64,000 bases of DNA. Origin: Kocuria turfanensis (lineage in GTDB: Bacteria > Actinomycetota > Actinomycetes > Actinomycetales > Micrococcaceae). The DNA is taken from contig NZ_CP014483.1 of the NCBI RefSeq assembly GCF_001580365.1, forward strand, positions 1 to 64,000, written 5' to 3'. The notes below the pieces were generated by a model, which was given only the letters and a program-made list of their open reading frames with translations, did not search any database and was not told where the DNA came from. Made by a program: the position numbers and the translations under genes. Position 1 is the stretch's first letter; each line of letters starts with the position of its first letter. Positions 3,201-62,299 of this stretch are shown here, in pieces.

Positions 3201-4654
3201 TGAGAATGACCGCCACGATCGACTCCACCGGTGCTGTGGAGCTGGACACCGCCGGGCAAATCACCCGTGAGAACCACTCCACCGTGGGCGATGCCCGCCG
3301 GGCCGTGATGGCCACGGCAAAGAGCCTGGCGGAGCAGACCAGCCAGGACATGCAGCTGCACATCGAGGACCCCGCCGGGTCCCGCACCTTCCTGGTCGGC
3401 GCCGATGGCACGTCCCGGCAGGAGAGCGTAGCTCCGGCGGCTGGGTCCGTGGCCACGGTGGAGCCGGTGGCATCGGCCTCCGTCGAGCGTCCGACCCCGG
3501 TCGAGTCCCCGGCGTCGATTGAGTCAGTCGATTCCACTGAGCCCGAGCCGGTGCCTGCGGTGGAGCCGGTGGCGTCGGCCGCTGTTGAGTCCCCGGCGCC
3601 GGTGGCTGCTGCGGTTGAGGAGGACCAGGCTGTGGCCCCGGTGGCTGCGACTTCCACGGCCCCTAATCCGTTCCTCGGCGGCCGCCCCTCCACGGCCCGC
3701 ACGACGGAGCCCGTGGCGGCTGGTAGTCGGCGGGAGTCGCTGCCGTCCTTCGTGGACCGCCCCGAGGTGGACGCCCCGGCCCAGTACGGGTGGCGTGGGG
3801 CGCTGAACCAGTTAGGCCTGCGCCTGGCGCCCTCGGCGGCGGAGCTGAGCCAGCGCCAGGACGAGGCCGCGGTTTCCGCCCACTGGCCGGGCCCGCGCAC
3901 GATCGCGGTCCTGAACCCCAAGGGCGGGGCCGGGAAGACCCCTACGGTCATCTGCCTATCGGCCGTGTTCGCCCGCCTCTCCGGGGGCGGGGTGCTGGCC
4001 TGGGACAACAACAACTCCCTGGGCTCCCTGGGGTGGCGCACCTTTGATGCCGGGCATGAGGCCACCGTGGTCGATCTGCTGGGGCGCACCGAGCACTTCA
4101 TGACCTCCGATGCCCGGGTGGGGGATTTGTCCGAGTACGTCCACCACCAGCCGGCGGACCGGTACGACGTGCTGCGCTCCGATGACCGTTCCGGGGACCA
4201 GGAGCGGCACATGGTCACCGGCGATGAGGTGGACCGGTTGCACGCGGTGGCCGCGAAGTATTACCGGGCGATCGTGATGGATTCGGGCAACACCGAACGC
4301 GGAGCAAACTGGCAGGCAATGATCGGCCACGCCGATCAGGTCGTGATCCCGGTGAAGTCCGTTGATGACGCCGCCGAGGGCGCCTCCCGGGTGCTGGCCG
4401 CCCTGCACGCCGGGGACGCCCACGCCCAGGGCCTCGCCCGGAATGCGGTGGTGGTGGTGCTGTGCTGCGAGCCCGGTCACCAGAAGACCAAGGCCAAAGA
4501 ACTGGCGGAGGAGTTCTCCCCCTACGTGCGGGCGGTGGTCACGATCCCGTATGACCGGGCGCTGGTGGAGGGTCGGGTGCGGTTCACGGCGATGACCCCG
4601 GCCACCCGCCGGGCCTGGCTGCGCGCCGGGGCAGCGGTGCGGGAGGGACTGTGA
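3200..4654 (+). CDS. ParA/MinD-like ATPase of the transfer operon
   Basis: A 484-residue protein beginning at ATG 3200 (TGATG overlap). Residues 1-65 form a small domain, residues about 75-180 are a low-complexity Pro/Val/Ala/Glu linker, and the C-terminal 250 residues are a deviant Walker ATPase with NPKGGAGKTPT at about 239-249, the signature lysine (KGG) and downstream VMDSGN and DQVVIPVKSVDDA strands typical of the MinD/ParA fold. Such ATPases are common in actinobacterial conjugation operons and probably position the secretion apparatus or the DNA. There is no ParB partner beside it, so it is more likely a transfer protein than the replicon partition ATPase. Confidence 0.85.
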   Translation: MRMTATIDSTGAVELDTAGQITRENHSTVGDARRAVMATAKSLAEQTSQDMQLHIEDPAGSRTFLVGADGTSRQESVAPAAGSVATVEPVASASVERPTPVESPASIESVDSTEPEPVPAVEPVASAAVESPAPVAAAVEEDQAVAPVAATSTAPNPFLGGRPSTARTTEPVAAGSRRESLPSFVDRPEVDAPAQYGWRGALNQLGLRLAPSAAELSQRQDEAAVSAHWPGPRTIAVLNPKGGAGKTPTVICLSAVFARLSGGGVLAWDNNNSLGSLGWRTFDAGHEATVVDLLGRTEHFMTSDARVGDLSEYVHHQPADRYDVLRSDDRSGDQERHMVTGDEVDRLHAVAAKYYRAIVMDSGNTERGANWQAMIGHADQVVIPVKSVDDAAEGASRVLAALHAGDAHAQGLARNAVVVVLCCEPGHQKTKAKELAEEFSPYVRAVVTIPYDRALVEGRVRFTAMTPATRRAWLRAGAAVREGL

Positions 4655-5259
4655 TCGTGGACAGTCCCCGCAACCCCTTCGTGGCCGCACCCGAGGTGGT
4701 GGAGGAGGAGGACCCGATGGAGGAGGACCCGATCCTCGGTTCCCGAGACTCCATCCGCGGCCCGCAGAACCTCCAGCAGAGGCTGGCCGAGGAACCAGTG
4801 CCCGCCGAGGAGCCGGCCGCCCAGGTGGACGTCTCCCAGGCCACGTTGTGGCTGGTCGGCGCTTCCGGTGGGGTGGGCACCTCCACCCTGGCCGGGCTGT
4901 GCTCGGAGTCCATCGTGGACGCCGGCGTGCAGGAACCGGAGTGGGCGGGACGGGCGCTGCTGGTGTGCTCCACCAGCGCGACCTCCCTGGAGGCGGCCGC
5001 CCAGCTGGCCCGCAAGTCCGCCACCGGACAGCTGCCCTATGAGCTGGTCGGGCTGGTCATCGTCCACGACCGGCCCAAGAACCGGATCACCAAACCCACC
5101 CTGACCTACGCCCGCAGTGTGGCGCGCATGTTCCCGGTGGCCATGACCGTCCCCTACGAACCGTCCTGGCGCGAGGTCGGCGTCACCCCCTCCCCTTCCA
5201 GCACCCGGCTGAAAACCGTGCTGCGGAAGATCCACAAAATCGCCCAGACCGGGCACTGA
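4651..5259 (+). CDS. P-loop protein, DUF6668-like
   Basis: A 202-residue protein with GTG start 4651 overlapping the previous stop. After a 60-residue acidic N-terminus it has the loop GASGGVGTSTLA at about residues 70-80, which resembles the P-loop of MinD-type proteins but has GT in place of GKT. Later strands (ALLVCSTSATSLEAA, LVGLVIVHDRP, VPYEPSWREVG) fit the same fold. The catalytic lysine of a normal Walker A is missing, so it may bind nucleotide weakly or act as a pseudo-ATPase partner of the ATPase encoded just upstream. I assign DUF6668 from memory of the motif and could not check it. Confidence 0.75.
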   Translation: MIVDSPRNPFVAAPEVVEEEDPMEEDPILGSRDSIRGPQNLQQRLAEEPVPAEEPAAQVDVSQATLWLVGASGGVGTSTLAGLCSESIVDAGVQEPEWAGRALLVCSTSATSLEAAAQLARKSATGQLPYELVGLVIVHDRPKNRITKPTLTYARSVARMFPVAMTVPYEPSWREVGVTPSPSSTRLKTVLRKIHKIAQTGH

Positions 5260-5274
5260 GAAAGGAACCCCCCA

Positions 5275-5544
5275 ATGCTCATCAACACCCTCAACGCCCT
5301 GATGATCCCGGCCATCAACGCCACCCCCACCCAGCCCCCGGGCATGGAGAACGTGACCATGATCCTCGGCTGGATTCTCTGGGCCGCCGGGCTGGTGCTG
5401 TTCGTCTACTTCATCTTCGGGCTCGTCACCGCCGGGCGGAACCGCCGCCGTGGTGACGAGGTCGAGGCCCCCGTGTGGCCGCTGGTCGCGGCCGCTCTGC
5501 TCGGGGCGGCCGGGGCGATCTGGAACATGATCACCGGCGGCTGA
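5275..5544 (+). CDS. Small two-helix membrane protein
   Basis: An 89-residue protein preceded by an AAAGGAA ribosome site. It has two hydrophobic helices, about residues 26-50 (ILGWILWAAGLVLFVYFIFG) and 65-85 (VWPLVAAALLGAAGAIWNMI), separated by a basic loop (RNRRRGDE). Size, topology and location just before the VirB8- and VirB6-like genes match the TrbC/VirB2-type or DUF6112-type small membrane subunits of actinobacterial transfer systems. A pilin-like or channel role is an inference. Confidence 0.75.
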   Translation: MLINTLNALMIPAINATPTQPPGMENVTMILGWILWAAGLVLFVYFIFGLVTAGRNRRRGDEVEAPVWPLVAAALLGAAGAIWNMITGG

Positions 5545-5593
5545 GCCGGCCCCCCGTTCCTCAACCGGCACCGCAACGACAGGGAGACCCCCG

Positions 5594-6403
5594 ATGGACA
5601 CGAACAACAACAACGACACGAACAAGGGCCGTCCCCGCTGGTTCGGCCCGGCGGTCATCGCCCTGGTGCTGCTGCTGGTCGCGGTAGCCGGATGGACCAT
5701 CCGCAACCTCACTACCCCCGATGAGGCCCAGGCTCCCACCTCGCCTGCTGCCCCTGCTACCTCGGCTGCCCCCACCCAGGGGGCGGCCGAGGCGGCTGCT
5801 CCTGCCTCGGGGGAGGACTTCGCCTGGGACTGCCAAGCCCAGCTGAACCAGGACGCGGTATCGGTGGCCGATGAGGCCCCTGAGGTCCTGGACTGGGTGG
5901 CTGCCGGCTATAACGTGGTGCCCTCCTCTGACGAGTTCGGCGGCTGTGAGCGACGCGACTCCGGGCTGCGGGTGGGCTACGCCCATTCGGAGGCCGGGGC
6001 TCTGATGGCCGCGGCGACTTACGCGATGGCCTTGGACCCGTCCGTGAGCGAGGAAGCGGCTAAGAACGTCGAGGTGGGCATTGCCGAGGGACCCAACCGA
6101 GACCGGTTGAAGGAGAAGGCCCAGCGCATCCGTGACGGTGTGGAGGAAGGCGACGACGGGTCAGCGTCGGCGTCCACGACGCTGATCGGTTACTCCCAAG
6201 ACCACTACACCGACGAAGCGGCGTCCTATCAGCTGATCTACTCCCTGCCCTCGGACAACGGTCTGATGACCAAGGTGGCTGTGCAGGCCGATGTGGTGTG
6301 GGAGGACGGGGACTGGAAACTCGACCCGGCCTCGGGCACTGAGCTGATGACCTCGGACCAGTACCAGGGTCAGTACTACGTGGAGTGGGGGCCCAAGAGC
6401 TGA
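5594..6403 (+). CDS. VirB8-like membrane-anchored transfer protein
   Basis: A 269-residue protein with an Asn-rich N-terminus, one transmembrane helix at about residues 17-36, an Ala/Pro/Thr linker to about residue 75 and a C-terminal domain of about 190 residues. The domain (starting FAWDCQAQLN and ending YVEWGPKS, with a strand VQADVVWEDGDWKL) resembles the NTF2-like folds of VirB8/TcpC-type scaffold proteins. The closest described family I recall is DUF8175, but this is unverified. A GGGAGA ribosome site precedes ATG 5594. It probably tethers the channel to the membrane. Confidence 0.75.
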   Translation: MDTNNNNDTNKGRPRWFGPAVIALVLLLVAVAGWTIRNLTTPDEAQAPTSPAAPATSAAPTQGAAEAAAPASGEDFAWDCQAQLNQDAVSVADEAPEVLDWVAAGYNVVPSSDEFGGCERRDSGLRVGYAHSEAGALMAAATYAMALDPSVSEEAAKNVEVGIAEGPNRDRLKEKAQRIRDGVEEGDDGSASASTTLIGYSQDHYTDEAASYQLIYSLPSDNGLMTKVAVQADVVWEDGDWKLDPASGTELMTSDQYQGQYYVEWGPKS

Positions 6404-8037
6404 TGGACGTCATCAAGGATGTTGCTGGCAGCATCGCCGGGGACACGGTGGAGAAGCTGATCCTGTTCATGGCCGGTTGGCTGATCGAGGTGTTCACCAC
6501 GATGCTCGATCTGGTCGGCACCTGGTGGCTGAACATTGGTGCCCCGGAAATGGGCGCCGGCTCGGCCACGGAGCGGGTGCAGACCGCCACCACGACCTTC
6601 GTGGGGGTCGCCGGCATCATCGGTACGGCTTTCGCTGTGCTGCGCATTGCCCGGGATCACAACCGGGAGTCGGCCGAGAATCTGGTGATGGGGCTGATCC
6701 GCACCGTGGTGGTCTCCGGCCTGGCGGTGTCGATGGTGTCCCTGTCGCTGGCGGTCACTGATGAGGTGGCCCCGTGGCTGGTGGACACCATTGCCGGCAA
6801 CGCGGCCCGGGACGGGCTGGGCCAGTCGATGGGCCTGAGCGGGATGGTGGGTGCTGGGATGGCGTTGCCGACCGCTGGGATTCTGCTGTTCCTGACTCCG
6901 TTCGCGCTGCTGGGGGCGATCCTCAACGCGGCCCTGGTGATCTTCTCCTACGGGGTGGCCGGGGCCCTGTGCGGGCTGCTGCCGATCTTCGCTGCGGCTT
7001 CCACCACGCAGAAGGGGCAAAAGTCCTTCGATAAGGCGGTGGGCTGGTTGCTGGCGATGATCCTTTTCAAGCCTGGGGCCGCGGTGATCTACGGCTTCGG
7101 CTTGGCCTTGATGAACGGGATCGACGGCACCGGCGGCGATGAGGTCGCCAACAAGATCATCTCCTTGCTCACCGGCACCGTGGTCATTTTCTCGGCCTGC
7201 TTCGCGATGCCCGCTCTGGTCCGTGTCCTGGTCCCGGCCGTCAGCGCCGGGCCCCGCGGTATGGGCGCTGGTGGACTGGCGATGGTCGGCGGGGCACTGG
7301 CCATCGGTGCGGTGACCGCTGGTGTCGGCACCCTGGCCGCCGGAGCCGGGGCCGCTGGCGCTGGTGCCGGAGCTGCTGGGGCTGGTGCTGCCGGTGGCGC
7401 TGCCGGTGCTGCCGGTGGCGCTGCCGGAGCTGCTGGGGCTGGTGCCGGCGGAGCTGGTGCCGGCGGAGCTGGTGCTGCTGGTGCTGGAGTTGGTGGTGTC
7501 TCGGGTGGCGGTGCCGGTGCATCCGGGGCCAGCGCGACGGATGCTGGTGCCGGCGCTGGGGGCGGTGCCTCCAGTACGACCGGAGCCCCGGGATCGTCTG
7601 GTGCTGGTGGGTCTGCCCCGGCCGGTGGACCGGCCGGCGCCGAGAACGTGGAGAGCACCACGGCTGGTGCAGCTGCTACCTCCGCGCCGGGGACCACGAC
7701 TGGTGGGGCCTCGGGTGCGGAGAACGTGCAGAGCCCCAGCACGGGTGCTGCCCCGAGCAGTGCCCCCGGCACGGGCGGGGCCTCGGGGGCGGAGCAGGTG
7801 CAGACCTCGAGCTCGTCCCCGGCAGCGGCCGGAGGGTCCGCCGAGGCGTCCGGGCCGGCCGGTGCCGAGCCGGTGGCTGCGACCAATGGTGCCGCGCCGA
7901 CCGGGCATCCGGGCGGGGAAGGGTCCTCGGCCACAGGGGCCAAGAATCCGTTGATCAACGGCCAACGACTGGAATTCGGGCTGCGGGAAGCCGTCCGGGA
8001 CGCTGAACAATCCATCGAAAGTGGTGAGGACCTGTGA
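6403..8037 (+). CDS. VirB6/TrbL-like polytopic membrane channel protein
   Basis: A 544-residue protein starting at ATG 6403 (TGATG overlap; an upstream in-frame GTG at 6385 would overlap the previous gene and looks less likely). The first 300 residues hold several hydrophobic helices in the pattern of TrbL/VirB6 channel proteins. Residues about 300-370 are almost pure Gly/Ala, followed by Gly/Ser/Ala-rich sequence in which AGAENVES, GAENVQS and GAEQVQTS recur at about 40-residue spacing up to about 490, then a short conserved end. The Gly/Ala tract is encoded by repetitive DNA at 7330-7500. It probably forms the inner-membrane part of the DNA channel. Confidence 0.8.
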   Translation: MDVIKDVAGSIAGDTVEKLILFMAGWLIEVFTTMLDLVGTWWLNIGAPEMGAGSATERVQTATTTFVGVAGIIGTAFAVLRIARDHNRESAENLVMGLIRTVVVSGLAVSMVSLSLAVTDEVAPWLVDTIAGNAARDGLGQSMGLSGMVGAGMALPTAGILLFLTPFALLGAILNAALVIFSYGVAGALCGLLPIFAAASTTQKGQKSFDKAVGWLLAMILFKPGAAVIYGFGLALMNGIDGTGGDEVANKIISLLTGTVVIFSACFAMPALVRVLVPAVSAGPRGMGAGGLAMVGGALAIGAVTAGVGTLAAGAGAAGAGAGAAGAGAAGGAAGAAGGAAGAAGAGAGGAGAGGAGAAGAGVGGVSGGGAGASGASATDAGAGAGGGASSTTGAPGSSGAGGSAPAGGPAGAENVESTTAGAAATSAPGTTTGGASGAENVQSPSTGAAPSSAPGTGGASGAEQVQTSSSSPAAAGGSAEASGPAGAEPVAATNGAAPTGHPGGEGSSATGAKNPLINGQRLEFGLREAVRDAEQSIESGEDL

Positions 8038-9566
8038 GTAGCAACCAGGTGATCGTGCGGCAGTACGGCAACATTGCCGAGGACAAGACGGCCGGGCTGT
8101 TGGGGTTCTCGATGGCCTCCACCGTGGTGCTCGGCGTGGGGTCGGTGCTCGTCTTCCTGTTCATCATGGCCTCCCAGATTTGGGTGGCCGCCGGCATCGC
8201 GGTGGCGGCGTTCATCGTGGCCACCGTGCTCGGGTCCAAGGACCGCAACGGCCGCTCCAAGCCCGAGCGCTGGATCGCCCGGTCCATGTTCTCCCGGGCG
8301 GAGAAGAAGCAGCGCACCACGTACAAGGCCGGGCCGACCTCACAACTCCCCGATGGGTCCTTCCGGGCCCCCGGGGTGCTGGCTGCGACCGAGCCGGTGA
8401 CCTTCACGGACCTGTTCGGCCACCAGGGCGTGATGCTGTGGCACCCGAAATTGAAGACCGGAACCGTGTTCGTCATCGCCAACTCTTCCGGGCTGGGGCT
8501 GCTGGATCAGGACCGGGTGGACCGGATGGTGGGCAGCTGGGCCGCGTTCCAGCGTGACGCCGGCTCCAACACGGAGCTGGTGCAGGTGTCGGTCACCACC
8601 CAGTCCACCACTGACCCGGGGGAGCGGCTGCCCGATGCGGTGGCCGTGGGTCGGGCTCAGGCTGGGTCCCAGTCGGTGCCGGCGTTCGCCCGCGCCACGA
8701 TGGATGAGGTGGTGGCCAACCTCAACCAGGACGTGCCCAAGCTGGAGCAGTGGATCGCCCTCACGTTCAGCGCCAAGGCCAATGAGGGCGAGGGGGTGCC
8801 CGAGCGCACCGCCGAGGAGCTGGCCACAGACGTGTCCTCCTTGCTGAGCGGGTTCTTGGAGCAGCTGGAGCAGGCCGGGGCCGGGTCGGTGTCCCTGATG
8901 CAGGAACACGACCTGATTGACCAGACCTATGTGGCCTATAACCCCCTGGCGGCCGCGGCCGTGGAGAAGGCCCGGCTGTCGGAGGCCGGCACCGGTTTGC
9001 GCTGGGAGGAGGTCGGGCCCTCGGCGGCCCGGGTGGTCGGTTCCCCGGGCCGGTATGAGCACGGTGGGGTGGTGTCGAAGTCCTGGCAGATGTGGCGCCC
9101 GCCGGCCGGCACGTTCCGGGAGAACGCGCTGGTGGCCCTCCTGGCCCCGAACTCCGAAATGCTCCAGAAGCGCGTCACGGTGTTCTATCGGCCGCAGTCC
9201 CCGGACAAGTCCGCTACCCAGGTGCAGCAGTCGTTGACCAATGCGCAGTTCGCGGCGAACCAGAAGAACCGCCGGCCCACCAGCTCTCAGATCATCGCCC
9301 TGGAGAAGGCGCGGAAGGCCGAGCGGGAGCAGGCCGAGGGCGCGTCGCTGGTGCGGTTCTCCATCGTGGTCACCGCCACCGTGGAACGGCCTGAGCAGCT
9401 GCCGCGGGTGGCGGCCACGCTGCGGCGCAACGCCTCCCAGGGGGTGCAGCTGGGGCTGCGGGAGTGCGACTACAACGACGATGCGGCGTTCGCGTTCAAC
9501 CTCGGCCTGGGCGTGGTCCCGGATGCCGTGGCCACGATTCCGGCTGACGTGCGAAAGGCGCTGTGA
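8034..9566 (+). CDS. SCO6880-like transfer protein (PrgI/VirB3-type membrane domain plus cytoplasmic domain)
   Basis: A 510-residue protein with GTG start 8034 overlapping the preceding stop. Two adjacent transmembrane helices lie at about residues 20-68 and are followed by a large soluble region with DAVAVGRAQAGSQSVPAFARA and a long amphipathic middle. The arrangement matches the actinobacterial SCO6880 family, where a VirB3/PrgI-like membrane part is fused to a domain resembling the N-terminus of VirB4. It directly precedes the VirB4-like ATPase gene, as expected if the two proteins act together at the channel base. Confidence 0.85.
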   Translation: MSSNQVIVRQYGNIAEDKTAGLLGFSMASTVVLGVGSVLVFLFIMASQIWVAAGIAVAAFIVATVLGSKDRNGRSKPERWIARSMFSRAEKKQRTTYKAGPTSQLPDGSFRAPGVLAATEPVTFTDLFGHQGVMLWHPKLKTGTVFVIANSSGLGLLDQDRVDRMVGSWAAFQRDAGSNTELVQVSVTTQSTTDPGERLPDAVAVGRAQAGSQSVPAFARATMDEVVANLNQDVPKLEQWIALTFSAKANEGEGVPERTAEELATDVSSLLSGFLEQLEQAGAGSVSLMQEHDLIDQTYVAYNPLAAAAVEKARLSEAGTGLRWEEVGPSAARVVGSPGRYEHGGVVSKSWQMWRPPAGTFRENALVALLAPNSEMLQKRVTVFYRPQSPDKSATQVQQSLTNAQFAANQKNRRPTSSQIIALEKARKAEREQAEGASLVRFSIVVTATVERPEQLPRVAATLRRNASQGVQLGLRECDYNDDAAFAFNLGLGVVPDAVATIPADVRKAL

Positions 9567-52128: not shown

Positions 52129-52458
52129 ATGGCCCAGAGCGTGCAGATCATCCTGGAGGACGACCTGGAGGGTGGTCCTGCTGATGAGACCGTCCAGTTC
52201 GGTCTGGACGGCCGGCAGTACGAAATCGACCTGTCCACCGCGAATGCGGAGAAGCTGCGGGAGGCCCTGCGCCCCTACGCCGCCGCTGGCCGGCGGGCGC
52301 AGGGCAAATCCGCCCGGACCACCGGGGCCCGATCTTCCTCCGGTGGTAACCCGGAGACGGCGAAGATCCGGGCCTGGGCGAAGGAGAACGGATACGAGGT
52401 CTCCGACCGCGGCCGCATCCACCGATCCGTCAAGGACGCCTACTACGCCGCCCAGTAG
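52129..52458 (+). CDS. lsr2: Lsr2 nucleoid-associated xenogeneic silencer
   Basis: A 109-residue protein with AAAGGTG before ATG 52129. The N-terminal dimerisation domain (VQIILEDDLEGGPADETVQF, YEIDLSTANAEKLREALRPY) and C-terminal DNA-binding domain with the AT-hook-like RGR (IRAWAKENGYEVSDRGRIHRSVKDAYYAAQ) are both complete. Lsr2 coats AT-rich horizontally acquired DNA and represses it. Plasmid-borne copies can reduce the cost of the element to the host. Confidence 0.96.
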   Translation: MAQSVQIILEDDLEGGPADETVQFGLDGRQYEIDLSTANAEKLREALRPYAAAGRRAQGKSARTTGARSSSGGNPETAKIRAWAKENGYEVSDRGRIHRSVKDAYYAAQ

Positions 52459-53740: not shown

Positions 53741-53763
53741 ACGAAAGCAAAGTTTGCTTTCGT
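53741..53763. promoter_or_regulatory. 23-bp operator-like palindrome upstream of the surface protein
   Basis: ACGAAAGCAAA at 53741-53751 and TTTGCTTTCGT at 53753-53763 are perfect inverse copies around a single central G. It lies 63 bases before the surface protein start. The rest of 53358-53826 has no gene. Likely the binding site of a dimeric regulator. Confidence 0.75.
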
Positions 53764-53826
53764 TACCCCCCGTTGGTGGTGCGCTTCTCCCCCAGTAGCT
53801 GCGCCTCGTATCAGATAAGAGCGATC

Positions 53827-55836
53827 ATGAACCTTGGTAAGAAGCTTTTCGCCACCGGTACCGCGGCCGCACTGGCCTCTGGTGGTTTGTTCCTCACTGC
53901 TGGCCCGGCTTCGGCCGCGGTGGGTGACCCGGAGTGCCTGGCGGCGGAGGCGCAGCTGCGGGCGGGCCTGGAGCAGGCCGGGATCGAGGCTGAGCTCGTC
54001 GATGAGCTCGAGGCCGCAGTCGATGTCGTGGTGGCCGCCCAGGCCGAGCGCGACGCCCGGGCCCAGGCGGCCCTGGATGCCGCGACCGCCCTGGAGGTGG
54101 CGGTGGCAGAGCTGGAGGCTGCGGAGGATGCCGCCGCTGAGGTGGACATCGAGGCCGCTGAGGCGGCCCGAGACGCCGCCCAGGCCGAGCTGGATGAGGC
54201 TAACACGGCCCTGGCCGATGCCGAGGCCGTGCTGGAGGCCGAGGTGGCCGCCTACAACGAGGTCGTCGCCGCCGCCGAGGCCGACCTGGAGGCCGCTCTG
54301 GCCGCCCAGGCCGAGGCCGACGCCGAACTGGCCGCAGCCGATGAGGCGGTGCTGGAGGCCGAAGCCGATCTGGAGGCCGCGGTCGCCGCGCAGGAAGCCC
54401 TCGATGCCGCTCTGGACGCCCAGGTCGAGGCCGACGCGGCGGTCGGTCCGGCCCAGGACGCCCTGGACGCGGCCCTGGCCGCCCAGGTCGAGGCCGATGC
54501 CGCGGTCGACACCGCTCAGGACGCCCTGGATGCGGCGGCGGCGGTGCAGGCCGATGCGCAGGCCGCCCTGGAGGTGGAGCTGGCCGAGCTGCAGCTCGCC
54601 CTGGACGCCCAGGTGCAGGCTGATGCCGCGGTCACTGCCGCCGACGTCGCCGTAACTGCGGCGCTGGGGGTGCAGGCCGATGCCGAGGCGGCCCTGGCCG
54701 ATGCCACGGTGGCCCTGACCGCAGCCCTGGCCGACGGGGACGCCGATGCGATCGCCGCCGCCGAGCTGGCCGTGGAGGAGGCGACCGCGGCCGTGGAGGC
54801 CGCGATCGGCGCGGTGGTCACCGCCCAGGCCGAGGCGGATGCCGCGGTGGCCGCGGCCGCCGATGCGGCCCTGACCGTCGGGGTGGCCCAGGACGAGGCC
54901 GATGCCGCCCAGGCCGAGGTGGACGCAGCCGCCGATGTCACCGCCGACGCGCAGGCGCAGCTGGACGCCGCCGTCGCGGCCGCCGCCGACGCCGCAGCCG
55001 CCGTGGCCACCGCCCAGACGGAGCTGGCCGACGCCGAAGCTGCCGCCGATGCTGCTGCGGCCGCGGTGGTCGAGGCGACCGCGGCAGTGGAGGAGGCCGG
55101 GTCCGTCGCCGATGCCCAGGCCGCCCTGGAGGTGGCTGTGGCCGATCGGGACGCCGCCCAGGCCGAGGCCGAGGCGGCCGCTGCCGCGGTGGCCGAGGCG
55201 CAGGTGGCGCTGGAGGCCGCCCAGGTGGAGCCGCAGGCGCTGATCGACGCCCGGGCGGAGGTGGCCGCCGCGGCGGAGGTCCAGGCCGAGGCCCAGGCTG
55301 CGTTCGACGCCGCGCAGGCCGAGCTGGACGCCCAGCTGGGCCTGCTGGCTGCGGTCGAGGACGCCGAGACCGCCGTGGCCGATGCCGAGGTGGCCGTGGA
55401 GACGGCCGTGGCCGCCGCGATCGAGGCGCAGCTGGCCCTGGACGCCGCCGTCGAGAGCCTCGCTGAGGTCCGCCTGGCCCTGGGCGAGGTCGGGGTTGAC
55501 GTCGAGGAGCTGGAAGCTCTCTTCGACGCAGCCCTGGTTGCCTGCGCCGGCCCGGGTGCCGGCATCGACGTCGATGTGGACGAGGGCCTGGTCACCGGCC
55601 CCTCTACCTCCCCGGGTGCCCCGTGGTCCCCGGGTACCTCCCCGGTGCACTGGGTGCCCGGCTCCTCCATGGAGACCACCAACCAGGGCATGAACGTCCA
55701 GACCGCCGGCACCACCCCCAGCACGACCACCGGTGCCGGTTCCGAGAACCACCTGGGAGTGATCGCGCTGACCGGGGCCGGTCTGCTCGCCGCGACCGGG
55801 CTGGTGCTGCGCCGCCGGCACACCACCGGCAGCTAA
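53827..55836 (+). CDS. Large alanine-rich coiled-coil wall-anchored protein
   Basis: 669 residues from ATG 53827. A signal peptide (GKKLFATGTAAALASGGLFLTAGPASAA) is followed by about 550 residues composed largely of Ala, Glu, Asp, Val and Gln in a heptad-like pattern (QAALDAATALEVAVAELEAAEDAAAE), predicted as one long helix or coiled coil. Repeated blocks such as LDAALAAQVEADAAV recur. The C-terminus has a Pro/Thr/Ser linker, a sorting-signal-like VQTAG, then a hydrophobic helix (LGVIALTGAGLLAATGLVL) and RRR. It is probably covalently attached to the wall by the sortase of the next gene. A stalk or adhesin function is inference. Confidence 0.85.
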   Translation: MNLGKKLFATGTAAALASGGLFLTAGPASAAVGDPECLAAEAQLRAGLEQAGIEAELVDELEAAVDVVVAAQAERDARAQAALDAATALEVAVAELEAAEDAAAEVDIEAAEAARDAAQAELDEANTALADAEAVLEAEVAAYNEVVAAAEADLEAALAAQAEADAELAAADEAVLEAEADLEAAVAAQEALDAALDAQVEADAAVGPAQDALDAALAAQVEADAAVDTAQDALDAAAAVQADAQAALEVELAELQLALDAQVQADAAVTAADVAVTAALGVQADAEAALADATVALTAALADGDADAIAAAELAVEEATAAVEAAIGAVVTAQAEADAAVAAAADAALTVGVAQDEADAAQAEVDAAADVTADAQAQLDAAVAAAADAAAAVATAQTELADAEAAADAAAAAVVEATAAVEEAGSVADAQAALEVAVADRDAAQAEAEAAAAAVAEAQVALEAAQVEPQALIDARAEVAAAAEVQAEAQAAFDAAQAELDAQLGLLAAVEDAETAVADAEVAVETAVAAAIEAQLALDAAVESLAEVRLALGEVGVDVEELEALFDAALVACAGPGAGIDVDVDEGLVTGPSTSPGAPWSPGTSPVHWVPGSSMETTNQGMNVQTAGTTPSTTTGAGSENHLGVIALTGAGLLAATGLVLRRRHTTGS

Positions 55837-55843
55837 CCACCAC

Positions 55844-55875
55844 GGCGGGTGGGGCGCTTCCGCACCCCACCCGCC
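55844..55875 (+). terminator. Terminator hairpin 1 after the surface protein
   Basis: GGCGGGTGGGG (55844-55854) pairs with CCCCACCCGCC (55865-55875), 10-base loop, eight bases after the stop codon. Confidence 0.7.
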
Positions 55876-55889
55876 ACCGTCGTGACCCT

Positions 55890-55920
55890 CCGGGCGCCGG
55901 CCACCCTGGCCGGCGCCCGG
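55890..55920 (+). terminator. Hairpin 2 between surface protein and sortase
   Basis: CCGGGCGCCGGCC (55890-55902) pairs perfectly with GGCCGGCGCCCGG (55908-55920), 5-base loop. Two tandem hairpins suggest that only part of the transcripts reach the sortase gene, setting the ratio of substrate to enzyme. Confidence 0.65.
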
Positions 55921-55953
55921 AACCACACCACCAGCCCTCGGGGGGGGCACCAG

Positions 55954-56742
55954 ATGGGCCATCAGCACGATCTGCACCGCGACCAGGACGCCACCACCAC
56001 AGCACTTGGCCAGCGCCGGGGCACACGCACCCTGCCCGCGCTCACCGCCCTGGCCGCCGCCGTGCTGCTCGGGGTCGGCGGATACCTCGGCCTCGGGCCC
56101 GCCCCTGACACCGGGGCGACCGAGCCGGCACCAGCAGCCACCCACAGCACCACCCCCAGTCCGACCCGGAGCGATGACCACTCACCGGACGCGCCCACCA
56201 CAGCGCCCTCCTCCTCACCCAAGCCTTCCCCAGAGCGCTCCGCTACAACACCATCGCCGGTACCGCCCACATCGTCCCCCGCGCCGGGCCGGGCCCAGCC
56301 GGCGGCCTCAGCCCCGGTTCACCTCACCGTGCCTGCGGCCGGCATCGACCAGCCGATCCTGCCGCTGGCCCCGAGCACCGCCGAGCTGGCCAACCAGTCG
56401 ATCGTGCCCCCGATGACCATGGACGCCTACTGGCTGGCCACCTACGGCACCCCCGGAGCCGGGTCCACGAACACCACCTACATCACCGGGCACAGCTGGG
56501 AAGGCGCCGACGCCCCCTTCGACCGGCTCAGCACCCACCTGAACCCCGGAGACACCATCACCCTCAGCACCCAGACCGGGGCCATCGACTACACCGTGGA
56601 CACGGTCACCACCCACGACAAGAACACCCTCAAAAACAGCGACATCTGGCGCATCACCCCGCAACGACTGGTGATCATCAGCTGCTACACCAACGACCCC
56701 TGGGGCAAGAACGTCGTCATCACCGCCAGCCCCACCCCTTGA
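55954..56742 (+). CDS. Sortase (actinobacterial class E/F-like)
   Basis: A 262-residue protein from ATG 55954. One N-terminal transmembrane helix (about residues 25-45), a Pro/Thr/Ser linker to about 120, and the sortase barrel: AAGIDQPILPLAPS, TTYITGHSWEGADAPFDRLSTHLNPGD (catalytic His), LVIISCYTNDPWGKNVVI (catalytic Cys). The usual arginine after the cysteine is not evident; the equivalent segment reads WGKN. It lies just downstream of a matching substrate gene, so it is likely its dedicated sortase. Confidence 0.88.
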   Translation: MGHQHDLHRDQDATTTALGQRRGTRTLPALTALAAAVLLGVGGYLGLGPAPDTGATEPAPAATHSTTPSPTRSDDHSPDAPTTAPSSSPKPSPERSATTPSPVPPTSSPAPGRAQPAASAPVHLTVPAAGIDQPILPLAPSTAELANQSIVPPMTMDAYWLATYGTPGAGSTNTTYITGHSWEGADAPFDRLSTHLNPGDTITLSTQTGAIDYTVDTVTTHDKNTLKNSDIWRITPQRLVIISCYTNDPWGKNVVITASPTP

Positions 56743-57271: not shown

Positions 57272-57363
57272 CCCGATGAAAACAGCAGGCTCGCACCCGA
57301 AACCTCTACCCCAGCCCCCTCATTTAAGCCATGCTGTTCCTGTGGCGAAAGGCATCTCCCACA

Positions 57364-57394
57364 CAGAAAGCCGGGCCCTGTGCCCGGCTTTCTG
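57364..57394 (+). terminator. Rho-independent terminator
   Basis: CAGAAAGCCGGGC (57364-57376) pairs exactly with GCCCGGCTTTCTG (57382-57394), 5-base loop. It lies 92 bases after the preceding gene. Nothing else is seen in 57272-57602. Confidence 0.75.
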
Positions 57395-57602
57395 CATGCC
57401 CAACATGCCATCATCGAGCCCGCATTGAGCGCCTTTGCTATCACCTTCACCAACCGGATGCCAGCGGCGGAGAGCCACAAACCAGGGAAACGCCCCTTAC
57501 ACCATTTGTGCGACAACCCCCCAGGGGCCGACAAGCACCGATTCCCCCTAGGTACAGGTAGCTGCGGGGCAGGTCAGCCAGCAAAAGTCGGGGCAGTCCC
57601 GT

Positions 57603-62225: not shown

Positions 62226-62299
62226 CGGGGGGTCTCCTGGTGGATCGGGCGGGGGCACAGGGGGAGGGCTCGAGCCCTCCCCCCGGGGTGGTGGGTGGA

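Follow-up and report, generated by a model that had tools for sequence, protein, structure and literature searches.

We analysed the first 64,000 bases (the window) of the 69,617-bp contig NZ_CP014483.1 from Kocuria turfanensis (RefSeq assembly GCF_001580365.1) and found, side by side on the + strand, a gene for a secreted alanine-rich helical protein (53827..55836) and a gene for a divergent sortase (55954..56742). We propose, at odds of roughly three in four, that the two genes constitute a wall-anchoring module of the Micrococcaceae, in which a secreted rod carries a non-LPxTG signal, the divergent sortase acts on that signal, and hairpins between the genes lower the level of the sortase. 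The computed results behind this proposal are the pairing of the genes, the conservation of the motif, the co-occurrence of tail and sortase, the sortase fold and the recurrence of the hairpins. The initial annotation had described this stretch as a self-contained surface module, and our results agree: a substrate with a sorting-signal tail and a sortase form such a unit on a contig of plasmid size.

In the mechanism that we envisage, the first gene would encode a secreted coiled-coil rod, long and acidic, with a Cys37–Cys573 disulphide that probably closes its base. The sorting signal of the rod would be read as N-x-G-hydrophobic-N-V-Q-T-A instead of LPxTG by the product of the second gene, a predicted membrane-bound sortase that would cut the signal after its Thr and attach the rod to the wall or to a wall precursor, and the hairpins would hold the sortase below the level of its substrate. 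For the rod itself we tentatively favour a role as spacer or coat at the cell surface over one in mating.

A divergent sortase next to an alanine-rich rod

The sortase gene encodes 262 residues from an ATG start, with an N-terminal membrane anchor (assigned by eye), a Pro/Ser/Thr-rich linker and a catalytic domain covering approximately residues 116–262; a longer alternative reading would begin at a GTG codon at 55849. His180, within the sequence TGHS (codon at 56491..56493, + strand), and Cys244, the expected nucleophile within SCYT (codon at 56683..56685, + strand), are invariant in 43 of 43 sequences, the window sortase included, in a set (A3) that comprises 42 of the 44 relatives with a start found, L056 and L066 having been dropped as short. 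The window sortase has no match to the Pfam sortase family (PF04203) up to an E-value of 10, and a search of its own genome with the same model recovered seven sortases, none of them among the three of the window-sortase kind. Scored with the NCBIfam class F model NF033748, it reaches 37 bits, where the cut-off is 166; relatives at L069 and L088 reach 28 and 30.8 bits, and neither the L054 relative nor a homologue on an Arthrobacter sp. TMP15 plasmid, which is annotated as a class F sortase, gives a class F match. No member of the window-sortase family that we tested reaches a curated Pfam or NCBIfam cut-off, and Protein Data Bank sequence searches with the window sortase returned no matches.

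An AlphaFold model of the sortase built from 43 sequences has a predicted local distance difference test (pLDDT) score mostly above 80 over residues 121–262 and of 69.2 over the whole protein, with weaker ten-residue blocks at 181–190 (65) and 241–250 (70). Foldseek matched this model to solved sortases with a probability of 1.00 (best match, E = 1.5e-8, template modelling (TM) scores of 0.40 and 0.56 by query and target), so that the protein is predicted, at moderate TM-scores, to adopt the sortase beta-barrel fold. The sortase gene that the initial annotation placed downstream of the rod thus stands as one whose product combines this predicted fold with the invariant His and Cys.

The substrate had been anticipated as a secreted protein of about 669 residues made of Ala-rich heptads. 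Its reading frame from ATG to stop encodes 669 residues, starts with a signal peptide (approximately residues 1–30, by eye) and contains heptads that are real but interrupted: hydrophobic and Ala periodicities peak at 3.46–3.54, above the 99% shuffle level, and the best self-match lags are 21, 7, 42 and 28. Residues 55–555 are 43% Ala and 23% Asp plus Glu, and the chain past residue 30 contains no Lys and has an isoelectric point of 4.05. Searches with the rod found no Pfam domain at E-values of up to 10 and nothing in NCBIfam up to 0.001. AlphaFold places helices at residues 55–104, 108–202, 207–303, 306–423 and 427–555, and the model gives a weak hint of a bundle with several passes, as opposed to a single helix of 75 nm. 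The sorting-signal-like tail is likewise present, completing the layout of a wall substrate: the signal peptide is followed by the non-canonical motif NQGMNVQTAG (residues 619–628) in place of LPxTG, a spacer, and a hydrophobic stretch with the basic end RRRHTTGS (55774..55836, + strand, borders approximate). The core of the motif, NQGMNVQTA (residues 619–627), is encoded at 55681..55707 (+ strand), and cleavage would be expected after T626.

Two cysteines bracket the Ala-rich region, Cys37 at its start (codon at 53935..53937, + strand) and Cys573 at its end (55543..55545, + strand). Exactly two cysteines past residue 30 are also found in 27 of 42 relatives (at positions 33/158, 37/202, 37/324 and 37/757, for example), and the distance from cysteine to cysteine across relatives ranges from 125 to 720 residues; four cysteines occur in eight of the remaining relatives, three, six and one in a single relative each, and none in four. 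The starts of the relatives' substrates were assigned by a simple heuristic, which seems to have failed for L053 and L089, and the start is probably wrong for the one-cysteine relative and wrong for one of the four without cysteines. Because two cysteines bracket the Ala-rich region both here and in the 27 relatives, the sequences suggest a disulphide-closed rod of adjustable length, which could act as a ruler.

A putative proline-free sorting code

In 42 substrates the motif reads N-x-G-[LFMI]-N-[VIML]-[QD]-T, followed by A or, rarely, by G, R, S or L. The G and the second N are present in all 42; the residue two before the G is N in 39 and G in 3, the V is found in 36, the following position is Q in 38 and D in 4, and the residue after the T is A in 34. 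Between 34 and 47 residues separate the motif T from the end of each protein. Outside this group, another Kocuria genome has GWNVDT at one locus (L043) and GVAVDT at a second (L048). Across 295 genomes of the family, 54 carry the sortase (E ≤ 1e-10) and 25 carry the tail (E ≤ 1e-8), and all 25 lie within the 54, with none among the 241 genomes that lack the sortase (hypergeometric 1.3e-21, kinship ignored).

The K. turfanensis genome comprises 4.16 Mb, with contigs C1 (3.74 Mb), C2 (160,938 bp), C3 (134,899 bp) and C4, which contains the window. Seven tails are detected in it at E ≤ 3.3e-8, one on C4, one on C2 and five on C1, against three sortases of this kind. The plasmid-size contig C2 encodes a 670-residue protein (L112, 6233–8245; G000:C2) that is almost a twin of the window rod, matching it at 73% over the first 75 residues and at 65% over the last 125; two open reading frames upstream of it (3819–5812) look by eye like an IS21-type transposase pair. 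Neither the Pfam search nor the search for window-sortase homologues gave a sortase match on C2, and the window enzyme may therefore serve several substrates. That the sortase is dedicated to the rod, as originally suggested, is plausible at most, given seven such tails and three sortases of this kind in one genome. What stands out at this locus is not the plasmid but a sorting code without proline and a clade of sortases missed by the curated models that we tried, and we found no description of this substrate-sortase family in the literature searched, which left out most subscription journals.

A family of substrate-sortase pairs with varied cargo

The two other sortases of this kind in the genome are both on C1 (C1:1314424 and C1:866691; the two identities are 57% and 41%), each with an upstream substrate gene that ends in the same kind of tail. 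Within 27 genomes of the genus, 13 have sortase matches at E ≤ 0.001 and 8 at E ≤ 1e-40, the genome analysed here included. Scanning 84,980 species genomes by pattern yielded 48 sortase loci, titled Arthrobacter, Pseudarthrobacter or Kocuria with one exception; among viral contigs, 13 stretches matched the pattern and no relative was among them. The exception (L078, contig WNZI01000068.1) encodes a Micrococcaceae-type sortase and is filed as Vibrio cholerae strain 35D, probably through assembly contamination. Eight of the 48 loci lie on contigs longer than 1 Mb and the others on shorter contigs of unassigned replicon type. A substrate ends no more than 1.5 kb upstream of the sortase in 42 of the 48, a descriptive figure because the tail pattern was chosen after the tails had been seen and requires the T. 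As for the six misses, two are at contig ends (L078 and L090), one has an N-run just upstream (L060), one has the motif without a proper in-frame tail (L080), and two have no motif on either strand (L072 and L077).

The cargo of the module varies. On the Arthrobacter sp. TMP15 plasmid (L050, NZ_CP154263.1), a gene at 6540–8429 that adjoins the family sortase encodes an ice-binding protein (Ice_binding domain PF11999, E = 3.2e-62) with the tail NNGVNVDTAA; it could be a wall-anchored ice binder from a meltwater pond. A second Kocuria locus carries Pro/Ala-rich stalks. Pseudarthrobacter-type substrates (L082, L085, L087, L088, L091–L095 and L098) contain a cysteine-containing stretch with the sequence ITICHATGS, repeated in most of them, and the one member tested (L088) matched nothing in Pfam or NCBIfam.

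In a midpoint-rooted tree of 63 sortases, from which seven rows were dropped as duplicating genomes present among L069–L099, a long and well supported branch sets the window family off from the seven Pfam-detected sortases. The plasmid sortase groups with Arthrobacter sequences (a group of nine, support 96/97) and not with the two C1 enzymes; its position among the nine has weak support (84/54), and the program flags its branch as long. When the C2 twin is set aside, the best match of either rod end is the substrate of Arthrobacter crusticola (L068), a locus in the same group of nine in the sortase tree: one end scores 72.0 bits, with 68.9 for the runner-up, and the other 69.3 bits, with 55.1 for the runner-up. 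The linker piece alone (residues 573–617) does not point to L068. Because the sortase groups with Arthrobacter and both rod ends match L068 best, the pair was probably acquired together from an Arthrobacter-like source.

Hairpins between the two genes

The two hairpins that had been reported between the genes are both present and strong. Hairpin 1 (55844..55875, + strand) has an 11-bp outer stem (55844–55854 with 55865–55875), and hairpin 2 (55889..55921, + strand) has a perfect 15-bp stem (55889–55903 with 55907–55921), a 3-base loop and no T run. The 117-nt spacer folds at −79.9 kcal/mol, with a z-score of −6.4, or −5.8 in the multi-locus comparison of spacers. In that comparison 40 of 42 relatives had a usable sortase start, and after 8 were set aside (spacer below 10 bases, overlapping or masked) 32 could be measured; z is below −2 relative to shuffles in 27 of these 32 (median −4.1) and in 3 of 80 control stretches from inside sortase genes. 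A search of the + strand of the spacer found no intrinsic terminator. Because the window copy has no T run, we consider attenuators or message-stabilizing structures more likely than classical terminators.

Upstream palindrome and replicon setting

As the initial annotation stated, a perfect 23-bp palindrome (53741..53763, no strand assigned) precedes the substrate gene, 64–86 bases before its start codon. It consists of ACGAAAGCAAA-G-TTTGCTTTCGT, that is, perfect 11-bp arms around a single central base, and is unique in the genome even with up to three mismatches allowed. The window holds seven distinct perfect inverted repeats of this type (arms of at least 11, loops of at most 8), the palindrome included, and eight window-sized first-order random sequences had 0–3 listed each; inverted repeats are thus above chance in the window, and the palindrome is not singular among them. 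A perfect 24-bp palindrome, GGGGGAGGGCTCGAGCCCTCCCCC, lies elsewhere in the window, at 62260–62283. The half-site of the 23-bp palindrome is no commoner in the window than expected by chance. We rejected the palindrome as a family trait, its sequence being found upstream of neither the C2 paralogue nor the 42 relatives; a different inverted repeat with arms of at least 7 occurs upstream in 7 of the 42, in a scan for which some start codons were guessed wrongly. The palindrome may be the operator of a regulator specific to the plasmid or the strain. The earlier description of the module as regulated has this palindrome as its sole basis, and the sequence is common to no relative examined. A consensus sigma-70 promoter search at the locus found nothing, and Rfam gave only three sub-threshold matches there; an Rfam scan of ten relatives returned two tRNAs.

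Fifteen relatives (L054, L056, L061, L063, L064, L066, L069–L071, L073–L075, L081, L096 and L097) share a conserved leader approximately 200 nt before the substrate start, CACAGCGATC..TCCGGGC ... GACGATCAGCAGCACGA ... GGCCCGG ... CAGGAGACGC, which the window and C2 copies lack. Its predicted structure is weak (10 pairs), and in L054, L064, L069, L071, L074 and L097 it has no Rfam match, a tRNA in L074 being the only hit.

C4 looks like a plasmid, and the pair can be called plasmid-borne, as first claimed, in the sense that it sits on a plasmid-size contig whose window part encodes a TraG/VirD4-type coupling protein, a ParA-like gene and an ArdC-like gene; the remaining 5.6 kb of C4 encode ParA and a UmuC-like protein (by eye, from translations). 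The pair is approximately 41 kb from the TraG gene, or approximately 24 kb the other way round if C4 is circular. Upstream of the pair lies a gene for an Lsr2-type nucleoid protein (52129–52458), and we speculate that such a silencer, encoded on the plasmid, might target the region around the palindrome. Downstream, at 57326–57395, we observed a strong hairpin (57364–57394) and a sub-threshold Rfam match to SorX (23.1 bits against a gathering threshold of 46.6).

Alternative explanations

Several results weigh against a wall-anchoring module. In the enzyme, no conserved Arg follows Cys244, and the residue before the conserved Asn is K in 34, T in 11 and R in 3 of the 48 loci; PMC13257024 describes a conserved His-Cys-Arg triad for sortases. 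In the substrate, the L048 protein reads GVAVDT, and the AlphaFold model of the rod, made from a single sequence, has a mean pLDDT of 62.5 (best at approximately residues 250–360). With respect to co-occurrence, 29 of the 54 sortase genomes have no tail that passes the E-value limit, the 20 tails behind the tail model came from substrates beside sortases and include none of the Pseudarthrobacter type, only part of the first-look tail candidates per genome was scored, and four of the seven tails in the K. turfanensis genome are not beside such a sortase (those on C4 and two on C1 are). The control for the hairpins consisted of coding DNA and not of other intergenic spacers. By eye, the seven Pfam-detected sortases of the genome (L001–L007, one of them on C3) also show no Arg between the Cys and the Asn near the C-terminus. 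We therefore rejected the missing Arg as a mark of the window-sortase family alone, and it is not excluding by itself.

Some of these features could fit a rod held by its membrane segment, with the tail acting as a transmembrane anchor only and the neighbouring protein being a chaperone or a dead sortase-like enzyme. The absence of the Arg would agree with this, as would an N-V-Q-T sequence without the Pro of most known motifs and the single published NVQTG candidate, which Clostridioides difficile SrtB left uncut (PMC4155245). We nevertheless regard a non-catalytic partner as unlikely, given that the His and Cys are invariant in 43 of 43 sequences and that the G and N of the motif are identical in 42 of 42 substrates despite a permissive pattern, when a plain membrane anchor would need neither. 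Polymerization of the rod into a pilus-like fibre, as by class C sortases, seems very improbable to us: the best Foldseek matches are class C pilus sortases, but the 50 matches listed also include class A entries that score similarly, and we noticed no further pilin-like gene next to the two genes in the open reading frame listings, in which no systematic search was made.

The initial annotation had favoured a stalk or aggregation factor that promotes mating contact. Plasmid-borne aggregation proteins anchored through sorting signals are known in enterococci, and C4 does carry the TraG-type coupling protein and the ArdC-like gene. Homologous pairs, however, are found on the chromosomal contig C1 of the same genome and at loci on contigs above 1 Mb (8 of 48), largely the chromosomal distribution that had been named as evidence against the idea. 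The expected conservation on conjugative elements did not appear either, as 72,556 plasmid records contained one other sortase homologue that reached an E-value of 1e-5, that of Arthrobacter sp. TMP15, on a plasmid typed as non-mobilizable and next to the ice-binding protein. The same records held no substrate homologue, a null result weakened by the low-complexity filter of BLAST. The rod, moreover, lacks any recognized domain in the Pfam and NCBIfam searches above, and we found no supporting link to transfer. Any surface rod can alter cell contact, but on this evidence we rejected a transfer role and consider a mating factor quite unlikely. A wall-anchoring module with the rod as spacer or coat thus remains our preferred explanation.

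Comparison with known systems

The enterococcal aggregation substance of the PrgB type is a large, plasmid-borne LPXTG adhesin that is anchored by a host sortase and controlled by pheromone. The K. turfanensis protein resembles it as a plasmid-borne, secreted surface protein with a sorting signal, but it is a simple helical rod encoded next to a sortase of its own, and we found no link to transfer. It shares with the stalks of fibrillar adhesins (PMC8286594) a long stalk on a surface protein, whereas Pfam searches recognized no adhesive tip domain in the rod.

Class B sortases with NPQTN-type signals, and C. difficile SrtB and CbpA, offer a parallel to the motif in the pentapeptide N-x-Q-T. 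The CbpA sequence NVQTG was proposed as a sorting signal, yet C. difficile SrtB did not cleave it in vitro (PMC4155245), and two reports describe NVQTG as not cleaved by, or poorly placed in, this enzyme (PMC4155245 and PMC5118464). The present family differs in that conservation reaches upstream into N-x-G-L and in that the curated model closest to it belongs to a class other than B.

Searches for Gram-positive substrates use, for example, LPXTG, NPXTG, SPXTG, PPXTG, LPXTA and LAXTG (PMC13251363). Because such searches seek LPXTG-type motifs and the curated models tried miss these sortases, a layer of Kocuria and Arthrobacter wall proteins may be overlooked. A strict proline-free sortase tag, if confirmed, would be useful for protein ligation, and cargo swaps, if real, would show surface traits such as ice binding moving as a unit.

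The nearest curated model belongs to the class F sortases (NF033748; Cutibacterium acnes SrtF), whose roles are given as unknown in PMC13251363. Class F enzymes are actinobacterial, like those described here, and the TMP15 homologue is annotated as one of them, but the window sortase scores far below the class F cut-off and is separated by a long branch from the Pfam-detected sortases. We tentatively suggest, at somewhat less than even odds, that the family represents a separate sortase class with its own code, N-x-G-L-N-V-Q-T-A, which is proline-free and whose recognition extends upstream of the pentapeptide, that its enzymes lack the canonical Arg, and that it moves between chromosomes and plasmids with cargo that can be exchanged (disulphide-closed rods of adjustable length, stalks rich in Pro and an ice-binding protein). 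The C. acnes class F sortase is described as using LPXTG (PMC13257024), whereas the adjacent substrates here, as read from their sequences, carry N-[VIML]-[QD]-T in 42 of 42 cases, with the T required by the pattern.

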